Below are positions 1,028 to 10,177 of a stretch of 10,177 nt of DNA, piece after piece. Below the pieces are notes generated by a model, which did no database searches, was not told the DNA's origin, and saw nothing but the letters and a program-made list of their open reading frames with translations. Source of the stretch: Acidobacteriota bacterium (GTDB taxonomy: Bacteria; Acidobacteriota; Terriglobia; UBA7540); assembly GCA_021827245.1 (NCBI GenBank), contig JAKAWN010000243.1, positions 1 to 10,177 on the forward strand. The letters are read 5' to 3'. Position numbers and translations under genes: made by a program. The number at the start of each line of letters is the position of its first letter. Position 1 is the stretch's first letter.

Positions 1028-1978
1028 TCAGCGTTTTGAAAACGTCCGCCCGATGTAGATGTCCTTATAGCTCGCGGATTTGTGCCCAGTCCCGAGACCG
1101 AGCAGGATTTGGAATGCAGCCATCGGTTGCTTCCGACGATTATGGCGAAAGACGAATTCATCAAGGTAAGCCTGGAGCCGATCGCTGCCTACGCCGTGAT
1201 GGGTTCCCAGCAACCATTGTTTCAGGTTGCCGATGGCGAGGTCTGCCAAAGGAAGCACAGACTTCGCGCCTTTGTGCAGGTCCGTTCGCGAGGGTTGAAT
1301 GCGGGGCACATGGCGAAACCCAGCCTCCTCCAATCCGCTGAAGCTCTTGAGCCCGTCGGTGTATACGACAGAGCCCAGTGCAACGTTCTGTCGCAGAAAC
1401 ACGATGAGGGTTCCGGCTCTGAAATCAGGGATGACCGCCATGCGAGCGCGCCCGGTCGCACGGCCGCGCTTCTCCACCGCCACCAGGACGAGTGCGGCCT
1501 TCCGGCCCCTGAGTTGTCGGCTTCCCCGGAGGCCCGCTTGGGTACCACCGATCCAGGTGTCGTCCACTTCCACCTCCCCGTGAAGCGGTTCTCGAGCCAG
1601 GTTGACCATGGCTTGCCGCAACTTGTGCAGCATTATCCATGCCGTCTCGTAACGTCGCAGACCGAGTTGGCGCTGCAACAGAAGTGCCGAGACGCCGCGT
1701 TTATCCGTGGTCATCAGGTAGGCCGCCCAGAACCAAACCGTCAACGGCGTTTTCGTGTTATGCAGAATCGTCCCGGCCGTCAGGGAGACCTGATACCGAC
1801 ATCGGGTGCACTGCCAGCGGCGCAGTTTCACGATTTCGTAGGAACGGTGATTCCCGCAGCGTGGGCAAATGAAGCCATCCGGCCAGCGGCACTCTGCCAG
1901 ATACTTTTGGCAAGCTTCTTCCGTAGCGAATATCGACTGGAACTCGCGCAGAGTTTTCGGAAACGGTGGGCGCGGCAC
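1028..1978 (-). CDS. IS1595-family (ISXO2-like) DDE transposase
   Basis: This cut-and-paste transposase acts on the terminal repeats that flank it. The 316-aa product has the N-terminal zinc ribbon of the family (CPRC at 38-41, CTRC at 57-60) followed by SLTAGTI. The core of the DDE_Tnp_IS1595 type follows: first catalytic Asp at residue 139 in EVEVDDTWIGG, second at 208 in VYTDGLKSF, then the family block NLKQWLLGTHHGVG (251-264) and LDEFVFRHNRR (272-282), which carries the third acidic or polar ligand. Length is normal for the family and no frameshift is visible, so it should be active. The start is a GTG at 1976-1978, about 50 bp inside the right terminal repeat. The upstream G-rich AAGGGG/AGGGG sequence is a mediocre ribosome binding site. 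The protein starts with PKTLREFQSIF, the usual N-terminus for this family. Confidence 0.93.
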   Translation of the reverse strand: MPRPPFPKTLREFQSIFATEEACQKYLAECRWPDGFICPRCGNHRSYEIVKLRRWQCTRCRYQVSLTAGTILHNTKTPLTVWFWAAYLMTTDKRGVSALLLQRQLGLRRYETAWIMLHKLRQAMVNLAREPLHGEVEVDDTWIGGTQAGLRGSRQLRGRKAALVLVAVEKRGRATGRARMAVIPDFRAGTLIVFLRQNVALGSVVYTDGLKSFSGLEEAGFRHVPRIQPSRTDLHKGAKSVLPLADLAIGNLKQWLLGTHHGVGSDRLQAYLDEFVFRHNRRKQPMAAFQILLGLGTGHKSASYKDIYIGRTFSKR

Positions 1979-2747: not shown

Positions 2748-3737
2748 CTAAATCTGGATGCGCTCCACTTCGTCCAAGGTGATCTCGTCGTTCGTGCGGT
2801 CGTAGAGCTTCGTCGTCCTCGGTGACTCATGTGCGGCAATCGCCTGAGCGTTTTCGAGTGTGCCGCCGTTGGCGAGATACGCGGTGATGCCGGTGGCGCG
2901 GAAGGTGTGGCAACAGGTGGATGCCGGCAGGCCCGCGGCGCGCGCCCGGCGTTTGATCATCAGGAACACCTCCACCCGGCTGAGCGGCCGGTCCGTCAAC
3001 TCGCGCCGGCGGTTGAGGCTCCGGAAGAGCGGCTCTTTCGCGCCGTGTTCCTTGAGCCCGGCGGCCCGAAGATAGGCGTCCATATATTCCTGAGCATTGT
3101 GATGGGCCGGCACCTCGTGGCGCTTGCCGCCCTTCTCGTGAAAGCGGAACCAGGAACGGCGCCCGTCATCATAGTAATCGCCGATCCGCATCTTGGTGAC
3201 GGCGCTCACGCGGGCGAAGCTGTAGACCATCACCCCGATCATGGCCCGGTCCCTCAGCCCGGCCATATTGCCGGTCTGGATGGAATCGATCAGCCTGCGG
3301 GCCTGTTCCGGACTGAGCACGGGCGTCTTGCCGCGTCTCACCACATGTTTCGGCCCCCGTACGGCGGCGGCCGGGTTCATGGGGATCACCTGGCTCACCA
3401 CCAGCCAGTCAAAAAGCATCCGGATGGCGGCCAGGTGCTGCTTGACAGAGGGCGGAGCAAGCGGAAGCCTTTCGATGTAGACGGCGACATGGACCGGGCG
3501 GATCGTCTCGAGCGACAGGCCGCGCTCTTCGCACCAGGCGAGAAATTGCCCCACCGCCCGCGCGTAAGCTTCCCGGGTGTTGCGGTTGCGGATCCGCGCC
3601 GCGAAAAACTCGAGGAACTTTTCCGGCGCATCTCCGCCGGCGTCGACGATGAGCGAGGGCAGGGAATGGGCGCTCGCAACCGGGGTGGGGTAGTGACGAT
3701 TCGAAATGATCTCTGCCAAGTGGCGATTTTCTGACAT
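2748..3737 (-). CDS. Tyrosine recombinase / integrase (XerC/D-like)
   Basis: This enzyme is a site-specific DNA recombinase of the phage-integrase family that cuts and rejoins DNA through a covalent 3'-phosphotyrosine. The 329-aa protein has a SAM-like N-terminal DNA-binding domain (about 37-125, with AARIRNRNTREAYARAV and WCEERGLSL). The catalytic domain (about 140-325) shows the full set of residues: R176 in YSFARVSAV, K202/K205 in HEKGGKRHEVP, H277 and R280 in CCHTFRATGITAYL, H303 in AIAAHESPRTT, and the nucleophile Y312 in KLYDR. Arg176 sits in AR rather than the common GLR-[IV], a mild variation. The ATG at 3735-3737 is well supported by GGGAGG 7 nt upstream. The gene begins 30 bp after the abiEii stop in the same direction and may be read from the abiE promoter. 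No att sites could be identified in the window. It could mobilise an integron-like or island element, or act as a resident Xer-type enzyme. Confidence 0.93.
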   Translation of the reverse strand: MSENRHLAEIISNRHYPTPVASAHSLPSLIVDAGGDAPEKFLEFFAARIRNRNTREAYARAVGQFLAWCEERGLSLETIRPVHVAVYIERLPLAPPSVKQHLAAIRMLFDWLVVSQVIPMNPAAAVRGPKHVVRRGKTPVLSPEQARRLIDSIQTGNMAGLRDRAMIGVMVYSFARVSAVTKMRIGDYYDDGRRSWFRFHEKGGKRHEVPAHHNAQEYMDAYLRAAGLKEHGAKEPLFRSLNRRRELTDRPLSRVEVFLMIKRRARAAGLPASTCCHTFRATGITAYLANGGTLENAQAIAAHESPRTTKLYDRTNDEITLDEVERIQI

Positions 3738-3767: not shown

Positions 3768-4691
3768 TTACCGGCCCGGTTTCAAGTGATGCGCTTTCCA
3801 AGGCCCGGCCTGGGGCCAGAATCGATTAAACTTCCTACCCGCTCGAACCGCGTGGGCAGGCGGCAGGAGAAACCCCCGCAGGTCCTCCGTCACGCGCTCG
3901 AGGGTCACACCTTCCGCCCCAAGCCCGCTCTTTCTCAGAAACGCCCGCCACTGGGTCGCCTTACTTTCGGCGAATTCGGCTGTCAGGGGTAGGGGATCGG
4001 CGGCGGGCATTTCAGTTTTCTGTCTTCGAAAAGTGGCTTCGATTGCCTGGGCGAGCAGCCGGCCCTCAAACTTGAATTCGCGCCCCAGAATCCACAGGTC
4101 GTAAAAATCCTTCATGCGGCTGTTCGTGAGGCCCAGCTTGACCAGGGCATGAAACTTCTCGGCCACCACGGTCTCGCGCGGGTAGGCTTCGAGGCGTGGC
4201 GCCGGAAAATCGAGCAGCGTGGGATACTCGAGTTTCACCGGTCCAGGCGTAATGGCGTCGCCAAAGCCCACATCAACCTGCAAGGGGATCCGGGCGTTGC
4301 CGAGGCGCGCGAGACACCGCACCCGCACTCCCTGGTAAGCAAGCTCCTCGCGGATCATCTCCGCGCGGACCGCCTTCGGATCAAAAATCAATCCGTCGCT
4401 TTCGACCGGCTGAGCCGAGATTTCGGCAAAAATCTCCTTCATGCCGTCCACCGTCGTTTCCCGCTGGCCGGCCAGGTCGAGATCGCGGGTCGGGCGGTGG
4501 GGATGCCGGGTCCAGAGCTCAAAGAGCAGGGCTCCTTTCAGTACAAAGAGGCCCCGGTATTTTGACCGGCTGAGACGGTAGAGCAGGCGCTCGATCCCGT
4601 AGCGGGTGAGAACCAGCCCGAACTCTTCGTTCCGGGCGCGCGCCAGGTTCATGAGGCGCTGGCGGACAGACGCGGTCAGATTCTTGGTCAC
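3768..4691 (-). CDS. abiEii: AbiEii-type nucleotidyltransferase toxin (type IV TA)
   Basis: AbiEii is the toxin of the AbiE abortive-infection system, a DNA polymerase beta-like nucleotidyltransferase that stops cell growth when not restrained. The 307-aa product shows the family motifs in order: FVLKGALLFEL (49-59), the metal-binding RPTRDLDLAG (67-75, D70 and D72), a further acidic strand LQVDVGFGD (137-145), VAEKFHALV (177-185) and SRMKDFYDLW (191-200, with K194 and D198). All expected catalytic positions are present, so it should be active. The start is taken as GTG at 4689-4691, which overlaps the abiEi stop as GTGA. That gives translational coupling to the antitoxin, as is typical for AbiE pairs. 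An in-frame upstream ATG at 4736 would lie inside abiEi and is unlikely. The C-terminal tail after residue 280 is basic and family-variable. Confidence 0.92.
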   Translation of the reverse strand: MTKNLTASVRQRLMNLARARNEEFGLVLTRYGIERLLYRLSRSKYRGLFVLKGALLFELWTRHPHRPTRDLDLAGQRETTVDGMKEIFAEISAQPVESDGLIFDPKAVRAEMIREELAYQGVRVRCLARLGNARIPLQVDVGFGDAITPGPVKLEYPTLLDFPAPRLEAYPRETVVAEKFHALVKLGLTNSRMKDFYDLWILGREFKFEGRLLAQAIEATFRRQKTEMPAADPLPLTAEFAESKATQWRAFLRKSGLGAEGVTLERVTEDLRGFLLPPAHAVRAGRKFNRFWPQAGPWKAHHLKPGR

Positions 4692-5293
4692 GTGAGAGAC
4701 TCCATATACGGCCGCATCACTTTGGCCACCCGGCAAACCTTCGCCGCCTGCCAGATCTCATCGAGCGTGGCCTTCCTCTGGCGAAAGCAGTCGCGCAGGG
4801 CCTCCAGGGCCACGTCCAGTCCGATCTTGTTCCGGTACTTGAAGCAGTCGGCCACGGTCTTCGCCGGCGTCGTGATGCGCACCGGGATGCCTTCAATGAT
4901 ATGCGGCGCCGCGCCATAATCGAGCGCCGCTCCCGAAAAGCGCACAATGCGCAGGGGCGGATAGTCAATTTTCGGCAGGCGCGCCTTGGTGTCGATGGCG
5001 AGCCACACCTCGTGGGGCAGCTGGGTGGTGAGATCGTGGAAGCGCAGCGCCGAAAGCAGCGCGACCACGCCGTGCGGGACGCGCTTGGCGGCCAGCGCCA
5101 GGTCGTGGTTCTCGGTCACCTCGGCGTCGCTCGCCACGTAAAGCCCCCGGGCGACGCGCCTGACCTTGCCTTGCGCTTCCGCGAGCCGAAGGTACTGGCG
5201 CGGGATCGGGCCGAGGTCGCGCGACCGGAGGATGCCGGCCCGGCGGGCAAACTCGGCCACGCGGTCGGTCACGGAAGGGGAGGCATTACGCAT
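4688..5293 (-). CDS. abiEi: AbiEi-type antitoxin and autorepressor (type IV TA)
   Basis: AbiEi counteracts the AbiEii toxin and represses its own operon by binding inverted repeats in the promoter. The 201-aa protein has an N-terminal winged helix (about 8-55: SVTDRVAEFARRAGILRSRDL, then IPRQYLRLAEAQGKVRRVARG and LYV). The AbiEi antitoxin domain follows, with VVALLSALRFHDLTTQLP, EVWLAIDTKARLPKI, the strand pair IEGIPVRITTPAKTVADCFKY (133-153) and GLDVALEALRDCF. Length and motif order match the family. The ATG at 5291-5293 is only 8 bp from a perfect -10 hexamer, so the mRNA is predicted to be leaderless and no Shine-Dalgarno sequence is expected. The stop overlaps the abiEii start by 4 bp. 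The 28-bp palindrome directly upstream is the probable self-binding site. Confidence 0.92.
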   Translation of the reverse strand: MRNASPSVTDRVAEFARRAGILRSRDLGPIPRQYLRLAEAQGKVRRVARGLYVASDAEVTENHDLALAAKRVPHGVVALLSALRFHDLTTQLPHEVWLAIDTKARLPKIDYPPLRIVRFSGAALDYGAAPHIIEGIPVRITTPAKTVADCFKYRNKIGLDVALEALRDCFRQRKATLDEIWQAAKVCRVAKVMRPYMESLT

Positions 5294-5435: not shown

Positions 5436-5975
5436 ATGAACAAAGAAGAGCCTTTCCTTTATGAGTGCCCCGGCTGCCATACCAAGATCAAGGTCGCTGA
5501 GGTGGTTGCCGAGATCCCGGATGAAATCTTGCGCGTTGAGTTGGCCCGGCGCAACGGACGCCGTCAGACCCCGCATCGCGGCCCAGGGCGTCCCGTCGTT
5601 AGACGCTGTCCAGGCTGCGATCAGGAGATGTCGAGCGCGGAATTACGCGAGCACCGGGTCGGATGCGTGCACGACCGGCTTCAGAGCTTGCGCGGTTTCA
5701 CGATTCGGCTGGAGCCTAAAGATCCGGACCCTTATCCGGACTTCGCGATCAACGAAGTGCATGCTGAGCGGGTCAAATTCGAGAAACTATCCAACGAGCA
5801 GCAACTTGAAGTGGAATTGCAGAAGGTTGCGGAAATCACCCCCAGTCCCCAGGAACACCTGGCCCGCATCCGCCTGTACGGACACGTCACATGGGATGAA
5901 AACAGCCAGATCTGGCGCTTTGTACCCTCCGTGCTTGGTCGGCCTGCGCTCACGGGAACTCTTCATCTTCGCTGA
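5436..5975 (+). CDS. Zinc-finger protein with AT-hook-like motif, unknown function
   Basis: I do not recognise a named family for this 179-aa protein. It has two cysteine clusters. The first is a CPGC knuckle at 11-14 (YECPGCHTK). The second is a C2HC finger: C58 and C61 in RRCPGCDQEM, then H73 and C77 in LREHRVGC. Between them lies a basic segment LARRNGRRQTPHRGPGRPV (36-54) whose GPGRP resembles an AT-hook core. This suggests DNA binding, and the gene's own upstream region is AT-rich and palindromic, so autoregulation is plausible. The C-terminal half (about 85-179) is acidic to mixed, probably helical around 107-133, without known motifs. The gene is divergent from abiEi, and its last 26 bp overlap the end of the ImmA-type peptidase gene on the other strand. 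The 182-codon plus-frame ORF over the same bases is a shadow. Confidence 0.72.
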   Translation: MNKEEPFLYECPGCHTKIKVAEVVAEIPDEILRVELARRNGRRQTPHRGPGRPVVRRCPGCDQEMSSAELREHRVGCVHDRLQSLRGFTIRLEPKDPDPYPDFAINEVHAERVKFEKLSNEQQLEVELQKVAEITPSPQEHLARIRLYGHVTWDENSQIWRFVPSVLGRPALTGTLHLR

Positions 5976-6744
5976 GAGCAAGCAGTTGTTGCTCGTCCCG
6001 CCACCATAGCAGTGTCAGGACCTGGTCAGAGCCAATTTTGATGGAATCTTCCACTAGGCTGTACCGGTTTGCATCCCGATGATCGATCCAACTATCGGCG
6101 TAGACCTCGACCGGCCGCTTCACACTGAGCTCTCCGTGAGTCAAGGAACTAGCAAGGGTATCGTCTTCTGGCCGCTCCCGCGGCCACAGCACTTCGGGGA
6201 CATCAGGGCCTCGGATGAACCATTTGCGTCTTCCTCCCTCGCTGCAAATGATCATTGCTGGAAAGGAACCATGCTGGACCAATCGGATTGCCGCTGCGGT
6301 CATACTGGTAACAAATTGGTGCGCCAGCGCATCCACAGTATCAAACGTAATTTCCTTGTTGCGTGCCCTGGGAACAAACATGAACTCGGGCAAAAGGCAA
6401 TCGGCGGCATATTCGTTTGCCCTTCGTTCGGCGTTGTCGGCAGTCCATTCCGAATTGAGCACGGATTCTGCACAGGCAAAGCCTACTTTCCCGCGGTCCA
6501 GCATCCAATGACCTAACTCGTGGCCTGCCGAGAAACGCTGTCGTGGTCGCTGTGCTCGGCAATCGACAGTGATAATCGCTCGGTCACCGTGGCCCACAAC
6601 GCGCGCCGCACACCCTTCTAAAACTTCGTAAACTATCGTAGCACCACAATATTGCGCAATCGCCTCGATGTCGATTTCATTAGGCTCGGAAATGCCAAGT
6701 TCTTTGAGCAACGCTTCGGGGGGTGTGAAGGAACGTGCCATCAT
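5950..6744 (-). CDS. ImmA/IrrE-family zinc metallopeptidase
   Basis: Proteins of this family cleave or control a partner transcription regulator: ImmA of ICEBs1 cuts the ImmR repressor, IrrE of Deinococcus cuts DdrO, and CapP of CBASS cuts CapH. The 264-aa protein shows the zinc-site signature HELGH at 75-79 within FSAGHELGHWMLD. The third ligand is expected at E106 in ERRANEYAADCLLPE. The peptidase domain spans about 10-160. The remaining 100 residues, ending in a WWRDEQQLLAL strand, form a C-terminal domain that may sense a signal, as in IrrE. It is the last gene of a minus-strand operon, 18 bp after the 141-aa gene. The start could be either ATG of ATGATG (6744 or 6741), and no clear Shine-Dalgarno is seen. 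Its genomic partner is not a classic XRE repressor but a sigma-like protein, which is the likeliest substrate together with the 141-aa protein (inference). Confidence 0.9.
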   Translation of the reverse strand: MMARSFTPPEALLKELGISEPNEIDIEAIAQYCGATIVYEVLEGCAARVVGHGDRAIITVDCRAQRPRQRFSAGHELGHWMLDRGKVGFACAESVLNSEWTADNAERRANEYAADCLLPEFMFVPRARNKEITFDTVDALAHQFVTSMTAAAIRLVQHGSFPAMIICSEGGRRKWFIRGPDVPEVLWPRERPEDDTLASSLTHGELSVKRPVEVYADSWIDHRDANRYSLVEDSIKIGSDQVLTLLWWRDEQQLLALSEDEEFP

Positions 6745-6762
6745 TCTGATTATTAGACTATA

Positions 6763-7188
6763 TCAACTGTCGAGGACGCCTAGTTCTTTCAATTGTTTGA
6801 GGAAGGTTTCGACATCGGCATCGGATAATTCCCTAAAATCGCGGTGCTGAGTCGTGAGCATTGCCGACTGGATATTGGGCCGCGCCGCGAAAACCGCTGC
6901 CAGGAGATCCCGCCGTTCGGCGGCCGAGGCTGGTAGATCGTACTGCCTCGTGCGCATTTCAGCAATTCTCTGCTCATAGGTATGCTTCGCTTCCCGCAGC
7001 TTCTTCTGCCGATGAGCTTTTGAGGCCTGCCGAAGCACGTTTCGAATACGTGCTGCCTCTATGGCAGGGTCAATTCCCTCCTCACGGATTTCGCTGAGGA
7101 TCTGTTCGTCCGAGAGCTCAAGTACCGAATCCGCCAGTCCACACATGATATTGGCAAGCTGTTCGTCGTATCTATTCTTATTCGGCAT
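6763..7188 (-). CDS. Small helical protein between sigma-like and ImmA genes
   Basis: I recognise no named domain in this 141-aa protein. It is charged and looks mostly alpha-helical. LADSVLELSDEQILSEIREEG (18-38) forms an acidic amphipathic helix. Residues 45-80 (VLRQASKAHRQKKLREAKH, then YEQRIAEMR) are a long basic-acidic helix that could form a coiled coil. ASAAERRDLLAAVFAARP and the ELSDADVETFLKQLKELGVL tail complete it. Translation is well supported by GGAGG 8 nt before the ATG. The gene overlaps the sigma-like gene by 11 bp and ends 18 bp before the ImmA-type gene, so the three are co-transcribed. It might be an anti-sigma-like partner or the substrate of the peptidase. Position is the only evidence for that. 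Confidence 0.8.
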   Translation of the reverse strand: MPNKNRYDEQLANIMCGLADSVLELSDEQILSEIREEGIDPAIEAARIRNVLRQASKAHRQKKLREAKHTYEQRIAEMRTRQYDLPASAAERRDLLAAVFAARPNIQSAMLTTQHRDFRELSDADVETFLKQLKELGVLDS

Positions 7189-7813
7189 GGCTCTGGCCTC
7201 CGTGTGTTCTGCCTCGCACGGCGTAGCGAATGCGCTTTACCGCCGCCTCGTATTGTTGTTTGGTAAAGCCGAGTCCCATGATTTCAGTACCGGTCATGCC
7301 TTCGGCCCATCCCTGAAGGATAAGAATACCCTCATCATCCCCTTCAACAATCTTGAAAACCCGAGCCACCTCTTCCTTCGCAAAAAGCACCCGGTCTGCC
7401 GGGGGGTCTTTTGAGCGGGCACTATCTAAGGGCGAAGATTCTTTCCCTTCGGGGTCTGCTGTGATGAGGTCAGATTCAAGCTGCGTGTCGTCTTCTTCGA
7501 CACCCTTGCGCTTTTGGTGGTGTGTCATGCTCCGCATGGCTCCGGTTAGGTGTTTTACGAAGTCAACTCTTTTGTTCCAGTGTCTTCCTTCGCCTGGGCC
7601 TTCAGCACCGGCCAAAGTCGAGGCTATTGCGTCATTTAACAGATCGTCAGCCTCGTGCCATGGACTCGTTCGCCCTAGACCTCGTATTCGCCAAGCGGCG
7701 AATTTGTGAAGCCGCAACAGTTGCCCGCTGGTCAAGGTCTCAATCGCGTGGTCAATTTCCTCGCGTGTCGCTGCTGTATCTTCCGGTATTCGCCTCGGAG
7801 TTTCAGACGCCAT
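7178..7813 (-). CDS. RNA polymerase sigma factor-like regulator
   Basis: The 211-aa protein looks like a divergent ECF-type sigma factor or sigma-derived DNA-binding protein. Residues 33-100 resemble sigma region 2, with LRLHKFAAWRIRGLG, then HEADDLLNDAIASTL (the DDL-x-x-A pattern of region 2.2) and FVKHLTGAMRSMTHHQKRK, which resembles regions 2.3-2.4. An acidic, low-complexity linker (105-140) follows. Residues 145-200 resemble region 4: EEVARVFKIVEGD, ILILQGWAEGMTGTEIMGLG and QQYEAAVKRIRYAVRG, a helix-turn-helix-like end. Similarity is weak, and region 4 is less typical than region 2. It is the first gene of the operon that ends with the ImmA-type peptidase. It is divergent from the ubiquitin-like operon across 151 bp, so it is the natural candidate to control that operon. 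The ATG at 7811-7813 follows AAGGG with about 6 nt spacing. Confidence 0.7.
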   Translation of the reverse strand: MASETPRRIPEDTAATREEIDHAIETLTSGQLLRLHKFAAWRIRGLGRTSPWHEADDLLNDAIASTLAGAEGPGEGRHWNKRVDFVKHLTGAMRSMTHHQKRKGVEEDDTQLESDLITADPEGKESSPLDSARSKDPPADRVLFAKEEVARVFKIVEGDDEGILILQGWAEGMTGTEIMGLGFTKQQYEAAVKRIRYAVRGRTHGGQSHAE

Positions 7814-7866
7814 GCCTGGCCCTTACTGTTGGCCCCTGTCTTCCTATGCCGACCTCAGTTACTCTG

Positions 7867-7893
7867 CGGAGAAATTTATTACTTTTTTCTCCG
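7867..7893. promoter_or_regulatory. Palindrome in the shared divergent control region
   Basis: CGGAGAAA (7867-7874) and TTTCTCCG (7886-7893) are perfect 8-bp arms around an 11-nt AT-rich spacer. The spacer includes TTTATTACT, which could carry a -10 box for either direction. It lies about 54 bp from the sigma-like start and 72 bp from the ubiquitin-like start. That is suitable for an operator that controls both operons. The binding protein is unknown; the sigma-like product is a candidate. Confidence 0.55.
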
Positions 7894-7926
7894 AACACTC
7901 CCGAGACCGGGCATTAGGTAAATGTG

Positions 7927-7949
7927 GGGAGGCCGGATTAATCCCTCCC
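7927..7949 (+). promoter_or_regulatory. Hairpin just upstream of the ubiquitin-like gene RBS
   Basis: GGGAGG (7927-7932) pairs with CCTCCC (7944-7949) around an 11-nt loop. The overlapping 10-mer GGATTAATCC (7935-7944) is a perfect palindrome in its own right. The Shine-Dalgarno AGGAG at 7954-7958 begins 5 nt after the stem. The GGGAGG arm is itself Shine-Dalgarno-like, and its CCTCCC partner could alternatively pair with the real AGGAG, so a translational switch is conceivable. A DNA operator is the simpler alternative. Confidence 0.4.
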
Positions 7950-7964
7950 GGACAGGAGAACGGA

Positions 7965-8243
7965 ATGGAAAATATCACGGAAACTCAGCAAGGTACAACC
8001 GAAGATCACAGTGGGAAAAAGTTTTTCATCGATATTGAGGGACACGAATACACCTGGGACACCCCCACCATTACGGTGGCCCAGATTCGCGCCCTCGGAA
8101 ATATTCCGCCAGACCAGCCCATCATTCAGGAAGCCCCTGACGGCACGGAGCGTACGTTGGGCGAAAATGAAGTGGTTGAACTAAAGCCCGGGCATCGCCA
8201 CGGTCGGGCTCCCAAATATAAGCGGGGGCAAGAAAATGCATGA
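7965..8243 (+). CDS. Ubiquitin-like protein (Multi_ubiq-type) of a conjugation operon
   Basis: This 92-aa protein is the probable modifier of the operon. After a polar N-terminal tail (1-17), one beta-grasp domain of the bacterial multi-ubiquitin type covers about 18-75: KKFFIDIEGHEYTWDTPTIT, VAQIRALGNIPPDQPIIQE, DGTERTLGENEVVELKPG. The basic tail is HRHGRAPKYKRG followed by QENA. Eukaryotic-type modifiers end in GG. Here a single Gly at 88 is followed by four residues, so C-terminal trimming by the neighbouring JAB peptidase to expose Gly88 is plausible (inference). The ATG at 7965-7967 is chosen because AGGAG lies 6 nt upstream and the domain fits. The in-frame upstream ATG at 7812 would reach into the divergent promoter region. 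The last 8 bp overlap the E2-like gene, the sign of one operon. Bil and Bub operons are the relevant known systems. Confidence 0.85.
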   Translation: MENITETQQGTTEDHSGKKFFIDIEGHEYTWDTPTITVAQIRALGNIPPDQPIIQEAPDGTERTLGENEVVELKPGHRHGRAPKYKRGQENA

Positions 8244-8646
8244 GCGTGTTAGGCAGGAGATCGAATTACTCCGCAAGAAATATGCGGCACTGGAGCATGG
8301 TGAGCAACTGAACTGGGTTTCGGTTCCAGAATTCGAACTCCCCCCTAACCGATTCAACAGGGAGAAAACTCAGCTTTTGTTCACGATACCGGTGGGATAT
8401 CCCAACACGGGGCCGGACAACTTCTTTGTTGATGTCGAGTTGCGTTTACGGAACGGAACGCCCCCGCCCGGGTTTAACCCAAATTCACAATCAACTAGCG
8501 GGGCGGCTCCACGGCCTGGGAACTGGGGATGGTTTTCATGGCACCCCAAGGCTTGGCGACCCGCAGCTTCTATCGCCGAAGGGGACAACCTCCTGACGTT
8601 CGTACGCGGCGTGAATTTATGCCTACGGGGTGAAGAGTCAGCATGA
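8236..8646 (+). CDS. E2-like (prokaryotic E2 family E type) protein
   Basis: In ubiquitin-like pathways E2 carries the activated modifier to its target. The 136-aa protein fits the bacterial E2 family E pattern: an N-terminal helix (2-22), FELPPNRFNREKTQLLFTIP (33-52), YPNTGPDNFFVDVELRL (55-71, the YPxxPP-like turn of the UBC fold), then NGTPPPG. The loop to NWGWFSWHPKAWRP (96-109) takes the position of the E2 active site, and the C-terminal helix is DNLLTFVRGVNLCL. The only cysteine in the protein is C129, in the last helix and far from the usual catalytic position. S101 next to W102-H103 is the most suggestive replacement. Transfer by a serine (oxyester) or a purely structural role are both possible. 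Start overlaps the upstream gene by 8 bp, and the stop overlaps the JAB start as ATGA. Confidence 0.82.
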   Translation: MHERVRQEIELLRKKYAALEHGEQLNWVSVPEFELPPNRFNREKTQLLFTIPVGYPNTGPDNFFVDVELRLRNGTPPPGFNPNSQSTSGAAPRPGNWGWFSWHPKAWRPAASIAEGDNLLTFVRGVNLCLRGEESA

Positions 8647-9209
8647 AGTGTTCAATCTCCATACCGGCCAGTATGAACAAGCAGCTCCAAAAGCACCTAT
8701 TTCGGAATCATCTGGAACAGGGAGCCTTCCTGTTTACCTATGTGGTAGGCAGTTCCGAGAATTCCTTACGGCTTGAGGCCACCGAGATGTACTTGATACC
8801 GCCCGAAGGATGGGAGGTTCAGTCAGACGTACATCTCGAGATGAAGGACGCTGAGCGAGCAAAGATCATGAAGATGGCTCGCAACGGCAAGCATGCAATT
8901 ATTGACTGTCACTCTCACCCCGGCTCTCATGATCATGTGGAGTTCTCCGCAAGCGATCGTGCTGGCATTGCCGATTTCTCTGCCTATGCGAAGTGGAAGC
9001 TTCCGGGTCAGCCATACACTGCCATGGTCTGGGGAGAAATGTCCGTCGATGCGGTTGTGTGGCATGGGGCCTTCGAACAAGCTCGCCATGTCCATGAGGT
9101 GATTCTTGCAGGTAGAAATATGAGCCGAGTTCTTGTTCCCCGTGGTACTTGGTTTTCTAGGAGATCGTTGCGAGGCAGAAAGCTGAGACTAACCAAACAT
9201 GAAAACTAG
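8643..9209 (+). CDS. JAB/JAMM metallopeptidase (deubiquitinase-like)
   Basis: JAB-domain zinc isopeptidases remove ubiquitin-like proteins from targets or trim their C-termini. The 188-aa protein has the JAMM signature: a Glu at 25 (HLEQGAFLFTYVVG), H90-S-H92-P in IIDCHSHPGSHDH, and S102-x-x-D105 in VEFSASDRAG. The gap between the second His and the Asp is 12 residues instead of the common 10, a small insertion that is still compatible with the fold. Strands SLRLEATEMYLIPPEG and PYTAMVWGEMSVDAVVW complete the core (up to about residue 142). The C-terminal 45 residues are basic and family-variable. It starts with an ATGA overlap after the E2-like gene and its last 11 bp overlap the E1 gene. 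Likely jobs are to mature the ubiquitin-like protein behind Gly88 or to reverse conjugation (inference). Confidence 0.9.
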   Translation: MKCSISIPASMNKQLQKHLFRNHLEQGAFLFTYVVGSSENSLRLEATEMYLIPPEGWEVQSDVHLEMKDAERAKIMKMARNGKHAIIDCHSHPGSHDHVEFSASDRAGIADFSAYAKWKLPGQPYTAMVWGEMSVDAVVWHGAFEQARHVHEVILAGRNMSRVLVPRGTWFSRRSLRGRKLRLTKHEN

Positions 9210-10059
9210 ATTTTCGCGTCAGATACTGGCGTTCGGCGAGGAGGGTCAACGTTCCATCGAAGCGCAGCGCGTCGGTATTGTCGGTCTCGGTGGCATCGGC
9301 TCTCACGTCGCTCAGGCTCTTGCCTATTTCGGGGTTCAAAGCTTCGTGTTGGTCGACGATGATTATGTCGAGGAGTCGAACTTGAACAGGTTGATCGGGG
9401 GCACAGCAAAGGACGTCGAGAAAGAGACCTTGAAAATTCGGGTGGCTGAAAGACTTGTTTGGGCAGTCGCGCCTGCTGCCAAGATCGACCCTATTCCCCA
9501 GAATTTGCGGTCTGCAAAAGCGATCGATGCCTTGACATCCTGCACCGCGATTTTCGGCTGCGTAGACCATGATGGGCCACGCCTGGTTCTCATGGAGCTG
9601 GCATGTGCCTACGAAATCACGTTTATTGATTGCGCGACAGAGATCGTGCCCGATTCTAAGAAAAGTCGTATTGAGGACTTCGGCGGCCGGGTCGTCGTAT
9701 GTCGCCCAGGGGACTTTTGTCTAGCCTGCGCCAACGAGATCGACCTTGAGATGGCAAAGGCGGAATTAGAATCTGAAGACGTTCGTGCGCTCCGAAAGGC
9801 ACACGGGTACGGCCTTGGGGAAGAAGTTGTGGCGCCCGCGGTCGTGTCGCTAAATGGCATCATCGCAAACCTAGCGGTAACCGAATTTTTAGTATGGACG
9901 ACGGGCATCAGGGAACCCTTCCGGAAGCGATTTTATCGGGGAATGAGAGGAATTATTCTTGAGAACAAGGACGTTCGACGCAAGGATTGTTACAATTGTG
10001 GCTACTTGGTTGGGAAGCGCGAGGCAGTAAATCTCTATCGGTACGTGAAGACTCAGTAA
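9199..10059 (+). CDS. E1-like ThiF/MoeB-type adenylating enzyme
   Basis: E1-like enzymes activate the C-terminal carboxylate of a ubiquitin-like protein as an acyl-adenylate using ATP-Mg. The 286-aa protein opens with RFSRQILAFGEEGQ. It shows the nucleotide site VGIVGLGGIGSHV (25-37), the DDDYVEESNLNRL block (53-65) with the conserved Asn and Arg, a Lys near 79, and CVDHDGPRLVLMELA (121-135) with the metal-site D123. The structural zinc site is complete: C174/C177 (FCLAC) and C264/C267 (CYNC). The crossover loop before PAVVSLNG (about 200-212: AHGYGLGEEVV) contains no cysteine, although thioester-forming E1s carry their catalytic Cys near there. It may only adenylate, or use a different nucleophile. 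The protein is single-domain, without E2 fusion, and starts inside the last codons of the JAB gene. Confidence 0.92.
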   Translation: MKTRFSRQILAFGEEGQRSIEAQRVGIVGLGGIGSHVAQALAYFGVQSFVLVDDDYVEESNLNRLIGGTAKDVEKETLKIRVAERLVWAVAPAAKIDPIPQNLRSAKAIDALTSCTAIFGCVDHDGPRLVLMELACAYEITFIDCATEIVPDSKKSRIEDFGGRVVVCRPGDFCLACANEIDLEMAKAELESEDVRALRKAHGYGLGEEVVAPAVVSLNGIIANLAVTEFLVWTTGIREPFRKRFYRGMRGIILENKDVRRKDCYNCGYLVGKREAVNLYRYVKTQ

Positions 10060-10066
10060 AGGCGTT

Positions 10067-10171
10067 ATGGTCGCTAACCTGACTTCCGCGCTCGGGCGAG
10101 TGAAGTATCGCATTGGCAATGAGATAGCATTTCATTCCGTCACTATGGCGAAAGGGCGGACCAACTTCTGA
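10067..10171 (+). CDS. Possible 34-aa small protein after the E1 gene
   Basis: The ORF runs from ATG at 10067 to TGA at 10169-10171, beginning 7 bp after the E1 stop. A weak AAAGG lies 4 nt upstream. The 34-residue product (begins MVANLTSALGRVKYRIGNE) matches no family I recognise. Its position invites reading it as a last small gene of the operon. A random ORF, or the 5' edge of a gene continuing in another frame beyond the window, is as likely. Confidence 0.25.
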   Translation: MVANLTSALGRVKYRIGNEIAFHSVTMAKGRTNF

Positions 10172-10177
10172 CCGGCT

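Follow-up and report, generated by a model that had tools for sequence, protein, structure and literature searches.

The window, as the whole stretch of 10,177 nucleotides analyzed here is called, contains a ubiquitin-like (Ubl) operon of the Bub kind and, upstream and divergent to it, a trio of genes for a sigma-like protein, a 141-aa middle protein and an M78 protease. The same trio adjoins further immune operons in bacteria, which makes it a probable on-switch of such operons. We propose, at a probability of about 0.65, that the ECF sigma factor, the anti-sigma-like middle protein and the CapP-like protease make up a general controller of immune operons (Bub, CBASS, TIR/short-pAgo and MBL-type), which would activate them via mirrored divergent promoters and not by derepression, here driving a Bub operon with a serine E2. 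That this particular locus is a Bub operon activated through release of an ECF sigma factor by a protease is considered moderately probable.

Identity of the Ubl Operon

The four-gene operon reported in the first-pass annotation at positions 7965–10059 is real, with the gene positions and the overlaps (8, 4, and 11 bp) as described there. Its genes encode, according to Pfam, a Multi_ubiq Ubl (PF14452), a Prok-E2_E protein (PF14462), a JAMM peptidase (PF14464) and a ThiF-type E1 (PF00899). Each of the four proteins reached the cut-off of its Pfam model, the JAB exactly, and all four component classes claimed earlier were found to be present. The proposed assignment to the Bub-like branch holds as well, on the basis of these four families and of the first PDB match of each protein, which was Citrobacter BubA, BubB or BubCD; taken alone, the PDB matches of the E2 (E 0.018) and the JAB (E 0.18) are weak. 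Because of these first matches, the operon is, as far as its sequence can tell, almost certainly a Bub operon, that is, one of an already described kind. Among the best 25 of 40 NCBIfam matches, none gave a name for the Ubl, the E2 or the JAB, and those to the E1 remained below their cut-offs.

The Ubl gene (BubA-like, 7965–8243, plus strand) encodes 92 aa with a single beta-grasp domain, in which Gly88 is followed by a C-terminal QENA tail. Its match to Multi_ubiq reached 38.7 bits against a cut-off of 24.5, in agreement with the beta-grasp fold obtained in the structure model; the same check returned a UBC fold for the E2, as the annotation had supposed. A total of 59 Ubl sequences were found, including that of the window, and 57 were aligned. 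Gly88 was invariant in all 57, being the C-terminal end in 46 of them and preceding a tail in the other 11, and one of the two Ubls outside the alignment ends at the glycine while the other carries a tail. The QENA tail may be trimmed by the JAB.

The JAB/JAMM peptidase (BubC-like, 8643–9209, plus strand, 188 aa) matched Prok-JAB with 25.0 bits, and its residues E25, H90, H92, S102, and D105 were invariant in 120/120 aligned JABs, the alignment comprising the 120 listed of 204 sequences. The E1-like ThiF protein (BubD-like, 9199–10059, plus strand, 286 aa) gave 124.8 bits with ThiF and a PDB match to BubCD with an E value of 1.3e-21. It contains the zinc-type cysteines C174, C177, C264, and C267. 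Among 19 diverse E1s, C264 was the sole cysteine of the window protein common to all, with C121 found in 16, C174 and C177 in 15 and C267 in 14. The BubC and BubD modules are both present, as two genes instead of one chain.

The closest known system is the Bub system of Citrobacter (PDB 9d59, 9ea4, 9ea5, 9ea8, 9eae, and 9eav), and operon type 6e is the closest type in Iyer et al. (2006). Citrobacter has one 458-aa chain in place of the two genes for JAB and E1, and a filament-forming multi-ubiquitin BubA of 247 aa in place of the one-domain Ubl; moreover, the window E1 has CxxC pairs, which are partly missing in the Citrobacter-like branch. The Bub form described here is thus compact, with a single Ubl domain and unfused JAB and E1, and it offers a setting for testing a serine-carried Ubl. 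A different arrangement was seen at L051:4423–6870, on a Candidatus Tenderia plasmid, where Ubl and E2 are joined in one 347-aa chain and JAB and E1 are separate.

The comparison with Bil, also raised by the annotation, stood in one part and failed in the other. According to PMC11354881, BilABCD has the same four classes in the order Ubl, E2, JAB, E1, as in the window. In the same paper, the catalytic cysteine of the Bil E2 is part of a CEHH motif, BilD combines two adenylation domains with a Cys domain, and BilA carries two tandem Ubl domains. Membership in Bil was rejected on all three features, given that the E2 of the window has Ser101 instead of the CEHH cysteine, its E1 is a 286-aa protein with one ThiF stretch instead of an inactive and an active adenylation domain with a Cys domain, and its 92-aa Ubl has one domain instead of two. 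Antiphage defense by Bub has not been demonstrated so far according to PMC13373217.

Relatives of the E2 were not found in viral contigs with either the single sequence or the alignment as query, and no DNA match to the window was found in the plasmid collection. E1 relatives were detected in 250 plasmid records, all below 60% identity, of which three were opened, and 11 phage records contained distant E1 matches. Close Ubl and E2 genes were also seen on MAG contigs of Aenigmatarchaeota and Heimdallarchaeota (L002 and L005), where binning errors are possible; L002 has the whole operon on its MAG contig. In L003:8916–9748, the E1 gene is split over two overlapping frames, through either assembly error or decay.

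A Putative Serine-Based E2

The E2-like protein (BubB-like, 8236–8646, plus strand, 136 aa) belongs to Prok-E2_E, and the fold comparison secures its identity where the PDB score is weak. Cysteine is absent from the usual E2 site, which is occupied by Ser101 in a Ser101-x-His103 arrangement at the active-site region. S101 and H103 were both kept in 120/120 aligned close sequences (the 120 listed of 183). In a set of 26 diverse E2s from the loci, the S101 column was occupied by Ser 23 times and by Cys three times, and 22 of these E2s kept H103. The three Prok-E2_E proteins with Cys in this column (L029, L030, and L041) make this a family with both nucleophiles. Bub systems may use oxyester chemistry. 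Given that S101 and H103 are kept and that the Ser/Cys pattern of the column fits, it is fairly likely from these alignments that the E2 is serine-based and would carry the Ubl on Ser101.

The E2-like protein could otherwise be a Ubl-binding scaffold, or make use of Cys129, with the E1 alone transferring the Ubl. For row 6e operons, Iyer et al., 2006 (PMC1779556) mention forms of the E2 fold that are RWD-like and inactive, and Cys129, near the C-terminus, is kept in 119 of the 120 close sequences. This explanation is nevertheless regarded as doubtful, since a scaffold or a Cys129 user accords poorly with S101 and H103 in every one of the 120 E2s, with the cysteine in the S101 column of three wider-family members, and with L005, L006, L007 and other branches, which have no Cys129; the last point also led to the rejection of Cys129 as a general E2 nucleophile.

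The Divergent Trio of Genes

The trio upstream of the Ubl operon, on which the first-pass annotation made no comment, lies on the minus strand and consists of the genes for an ECF-like sigma factor (7178–7813, 211 aa), the middle protein (6763–7188, 141 aa) and an M78 (ImmA/IrrE) protease with the motif HELGH (5950–6744, 264 aa). A profile of 28 sigma-like members matched ECF SigH with an E value of 1.3e-8 over positions 35–186 of 197, a match that spans regions 2 to 4, and the profile also draws unrelated chains at E values of 1e-4 to 6e-4. TIGR02937 was matched by 18 of the 28 members and Sigma70_r2 by 11 (E 0.01 or better), the L084 member passed the Pfam cut-off, and among the 18 plasmid copies with an annotation, five carry the name sigma-70 family. 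The window member alone was matched by no sigma model or family of Pfam and NCBIfam.

For the middle protein, no known family was found above cut-off, DNA-binding families included. Its gene occupies the same position in all 31 trios scanned, and the protein is a candidate anti-sigma factor. The protease matched Peptidase_M78 with 37.8 bits and, as best PDB match, CapP (7t5t, E 3.7e-9), and HExxH is likewise kept in the protease of 31/31 trios.

The trio resembles CapH+CapP in having a CapP-family protease and in being divergent to an immune operon. According to PMC13373217, CapH+CapP is known to adjoin Bub operons, and single-stranded DNA activates CapP, which cleaves CapH. However, CapH+CapP has an XRE-type repressor, in whose place the window has the sigma factor and the middle protein; no CapH-type HTH repressor was found by Pfam or NCBIfam in the two neighbors of the protease. 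The type III CRISPR set CalpL/CalpT/CalpS likewise combines a protease, a (candidate) anti-sigma factor and an ECF sigma factor, as described in PMC11417357. The protease of that set, CalpL, is of the Lon-SAVED type, senses cA4 and is part of CRISPR, whereas the window has an M78 protease and the trio adjoins Bub, CBASS and other operons. CapK+CapS, a DNA-damage controller adjoining Bub and CBASS operons (PMC13373217), differs in being a kinase with a STAS-domain repressor, and no such genes were found in the window.

Occurrence of the Trio

A complete trio adjoins the Bub operon in 8 of the 37 large loci scanned, namely the window, L001, L004, L045, L048, L054, L060, and L062, with the trio of L045 convergent to the Bub operon. 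The models of the trio were built from five of these eight loci, that of the M78 protease also from L002, L006, and L007; L054, L060, and L062 were not used in model building and are therefore independent finds. In L060:9149–9960, the M78 gene is split across two frames. The trio was absent or incomplete in the remaining 29/37 loci, and therefore Bub does not need it. These loci comprise L067, with sigma and M78 matches and the middle gene missing, thirteen others with an M78 match only, and 15 with none of the three genes. In L002, L006, and L007, an XRE-type gene adjoins the M78 gene (as judged by eye), as in CapH+CapP.

Searches for the middle protein in three further genome sets, each from one of three phyla and comprising 251, 194, and 246 genomes, gave matches in 6, 3, and 3 genomes, respectively. 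Five matches were already known, which left seven new places; apart from the weak matches G818 and G932, all of these were opened. Complete trios were found in L082, L084, and L109; the matches in L083 and L085 were judged false, having no sigma or M78 gene adjoining. The trio is divergent to a TIR/short-pAgo pair in L082 and to NucC and a cyclase in L084, and no adjoining immune operon was recognized in L109.

In plasmids, tblastn with the sigma protein of either L084 or L048 gave no match at E 1e-3, and the M78 protein was used as query instead. From the first 26 rows of matches, 20 distinct records made up the sample; the remaining six rows repeat Cereibacter and Bradyrhizobium barranii. 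The trio was present in 20/20 records opened, a figure that applies to the closer relatives only because 34 rows further down the list and 20 records beyond it, which matched more weakly or over a shorter length, lie outside the sample. Divergent to the trio, a Bub operon was found in six of the 20 (L094, L099, L102, L103, L105, and L106; in L102 only the E2 was recognized and no E1 was detected), a CBASS operon in four (L092, L096, L101, and L104, with cyclases by PADLOC), and an MBL-type (MBL/E1-E2) operon in one, L093. The latter had been considered as type II CBASS, which was rejected because PADLOC shows no cyclase. The other nine have something else, with no recognized immune operon there, including small DUF2188 genes in L097, L098, and L107 and likewise, behind IS21, in L095, a DUF3892 gene in L090 and, in L089, a gene that matches the PADLOC model ‘beta’. 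Genes with DUF2188 are a recurrent feature close to the trio or following the operon, as in these four loci and in L001:7020–7250; the identification is from Pfam in L001 and L107 and from annotation in the others.

In several phyla, the trio lies immediately divergent to immune operons that are unrelated to one another, with a short gap in between. Cereibacter sphaeroides 2.4.1 carries one copy on its plasmid pDE, where it adjoins a CBASS operon (L092), and the proposal is therefore testable in a well-known strain.

Promoter-Like Pairs in the Divergent Gap

The gap between the sigma gene and the Ubl operon contains a promoter-like pair of blocks, TTTCTCC-N15-CGGGCAT (7886–7914, plus strand), directed toward the Ubl operon, and its mirror, TTTCTCC-N15-TCGGCAT (7846–7874, minus strand), directed toward the sigma gene. 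This mirrored pair scored 12/14, and none of 30 shuffles was as good. No sigma70-type promoter match was found in 7700–10177. In a mirrored-pair test covering 26 gaps (L001, with its 18-bp gap, L045, L100, L106, and L109 being set aside), the score was 14/14 in seven gaps and was reached by 0/780 shuffles, figures to be read knowing that the block lengths were chosen after the gaps had been read and that several loci are mutually related. Nine gaps, including that of the window, beat all of their 30 shuffles, and in the other 17 the pair was matched by at least one of 30.

In the 18 plasmid gaps (3,311 bp), the consensus TGTCCGA-N15-CCGCATA occurred toward the sigma gene in 15 and toward the divergent gene in 13, with 13 gaps having it in both directions, compared with 63 matches in 241,855 bp elsewhere in the loci; these counts serve as description only because the consensus was derived from the same gaps. 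The window agrees with it toward the sigma gene only, at 11/14. The consensus was not found in five non-plasmid gaps (L004, L048, L054, L082, and L084), which would therefore need other promoter sequences. The two blocks keep a spacing of 15–16 bases, which is typical of a promoter. It is quite likely that the sigma factor controls the Ubl operon.

Proposed Switch and Alternative Explanations

We infer a switch in which protease activation leads, through cleavage of the middle protein, to Ubl conjugation. In the manner reported for CapP, a signal such as single-stranded DNA would activate the M78 protease, which in turn would cut the middle protein, by which the sigma factor would otherwise be held. 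The freed sigma factor would then bind the mirrored promoters and turn on both its own genes and the Ubl operon. Subsequently, the JAB would trim QENA to expose Gly88, the E1 would adenylate this residue, and the E2 would carry the Ubl on Ser101, as an oxyester, to a target; the linkage could also be reversed by the JAB. By analogy, this switch would parallel CapH+CapP in its protease and CalpL/CalpT/CalpS in its logic.

Two other explanations of the trio have to be weighed. In the first, the Bub operon is an ordinary one and the trio, a stress or mobile-element module in its own right, shares defense islands with it but exerts no control over it. The AbiE toxin-antitoxin genes, the recombinase and the IS1595 transposase close by would suit such a module, as would the nine plasmid trios and the L109 trio without a recognized divergent immune operon and the 29 Bub loci with the trio absent or incomplete. 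What makes it unlikely is the immediate divergent placement beside unrelated immune operons in several phyla, together with near-identical mirrored promoter-like pairs, pointing in both directions, in several gaps. Alternatively, the mirrored elements could be operators of a repressor, be it the middle protein or another, which the protease destroys as in CapH+CapP, the sigma-like protein having lost its role as a true sigma factor and become a DNA-binding partner. This is considered distinctly unlikely, because a match to a DNA-binding family is lacking for the middle protein, the similarity of the sigma family to ECF sigma factors extends across regions 2 to 4, and the block spacing is that of a promoter, even though nested inverted repeats would also suit a dimeric repressor, the sigma protein of the window alone matches no sigma model, and the protease matches CapP.

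CapW, CapH+CapP and CapK+CapS, the DNA-damage controllers of immune operons named in PMC13373217, act by lifting repression. If the proposed activation by a sigma factor is true, the controller would be a positive switch with self-feedback, common to unrelated immune systems. Among the titles and abstract beginnings listed in literature searches, none reported control of CBASS or Bub by an ECF sigma factor.

Gene Neighborhood

A protein of 179 aa with CxxC pairs is encoded at 5436–5975 (plus strand), with zinc-finger matches at sub-threshold level only. An IS1595 transposase, above cut-off, was found at 1028–1978 (minus strand) and a XerD-like tyrosine recombinase, below the cut-off of its model, at 2748–3737 (minus strand); both indicate a mobile setting. 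In addition, an AbiEi/AbiEii-type toxin-antitoxin pair is encoded on the minus strand at 4688–5293 and 3768–4736 (PADLOC, 272 and 405 bits).
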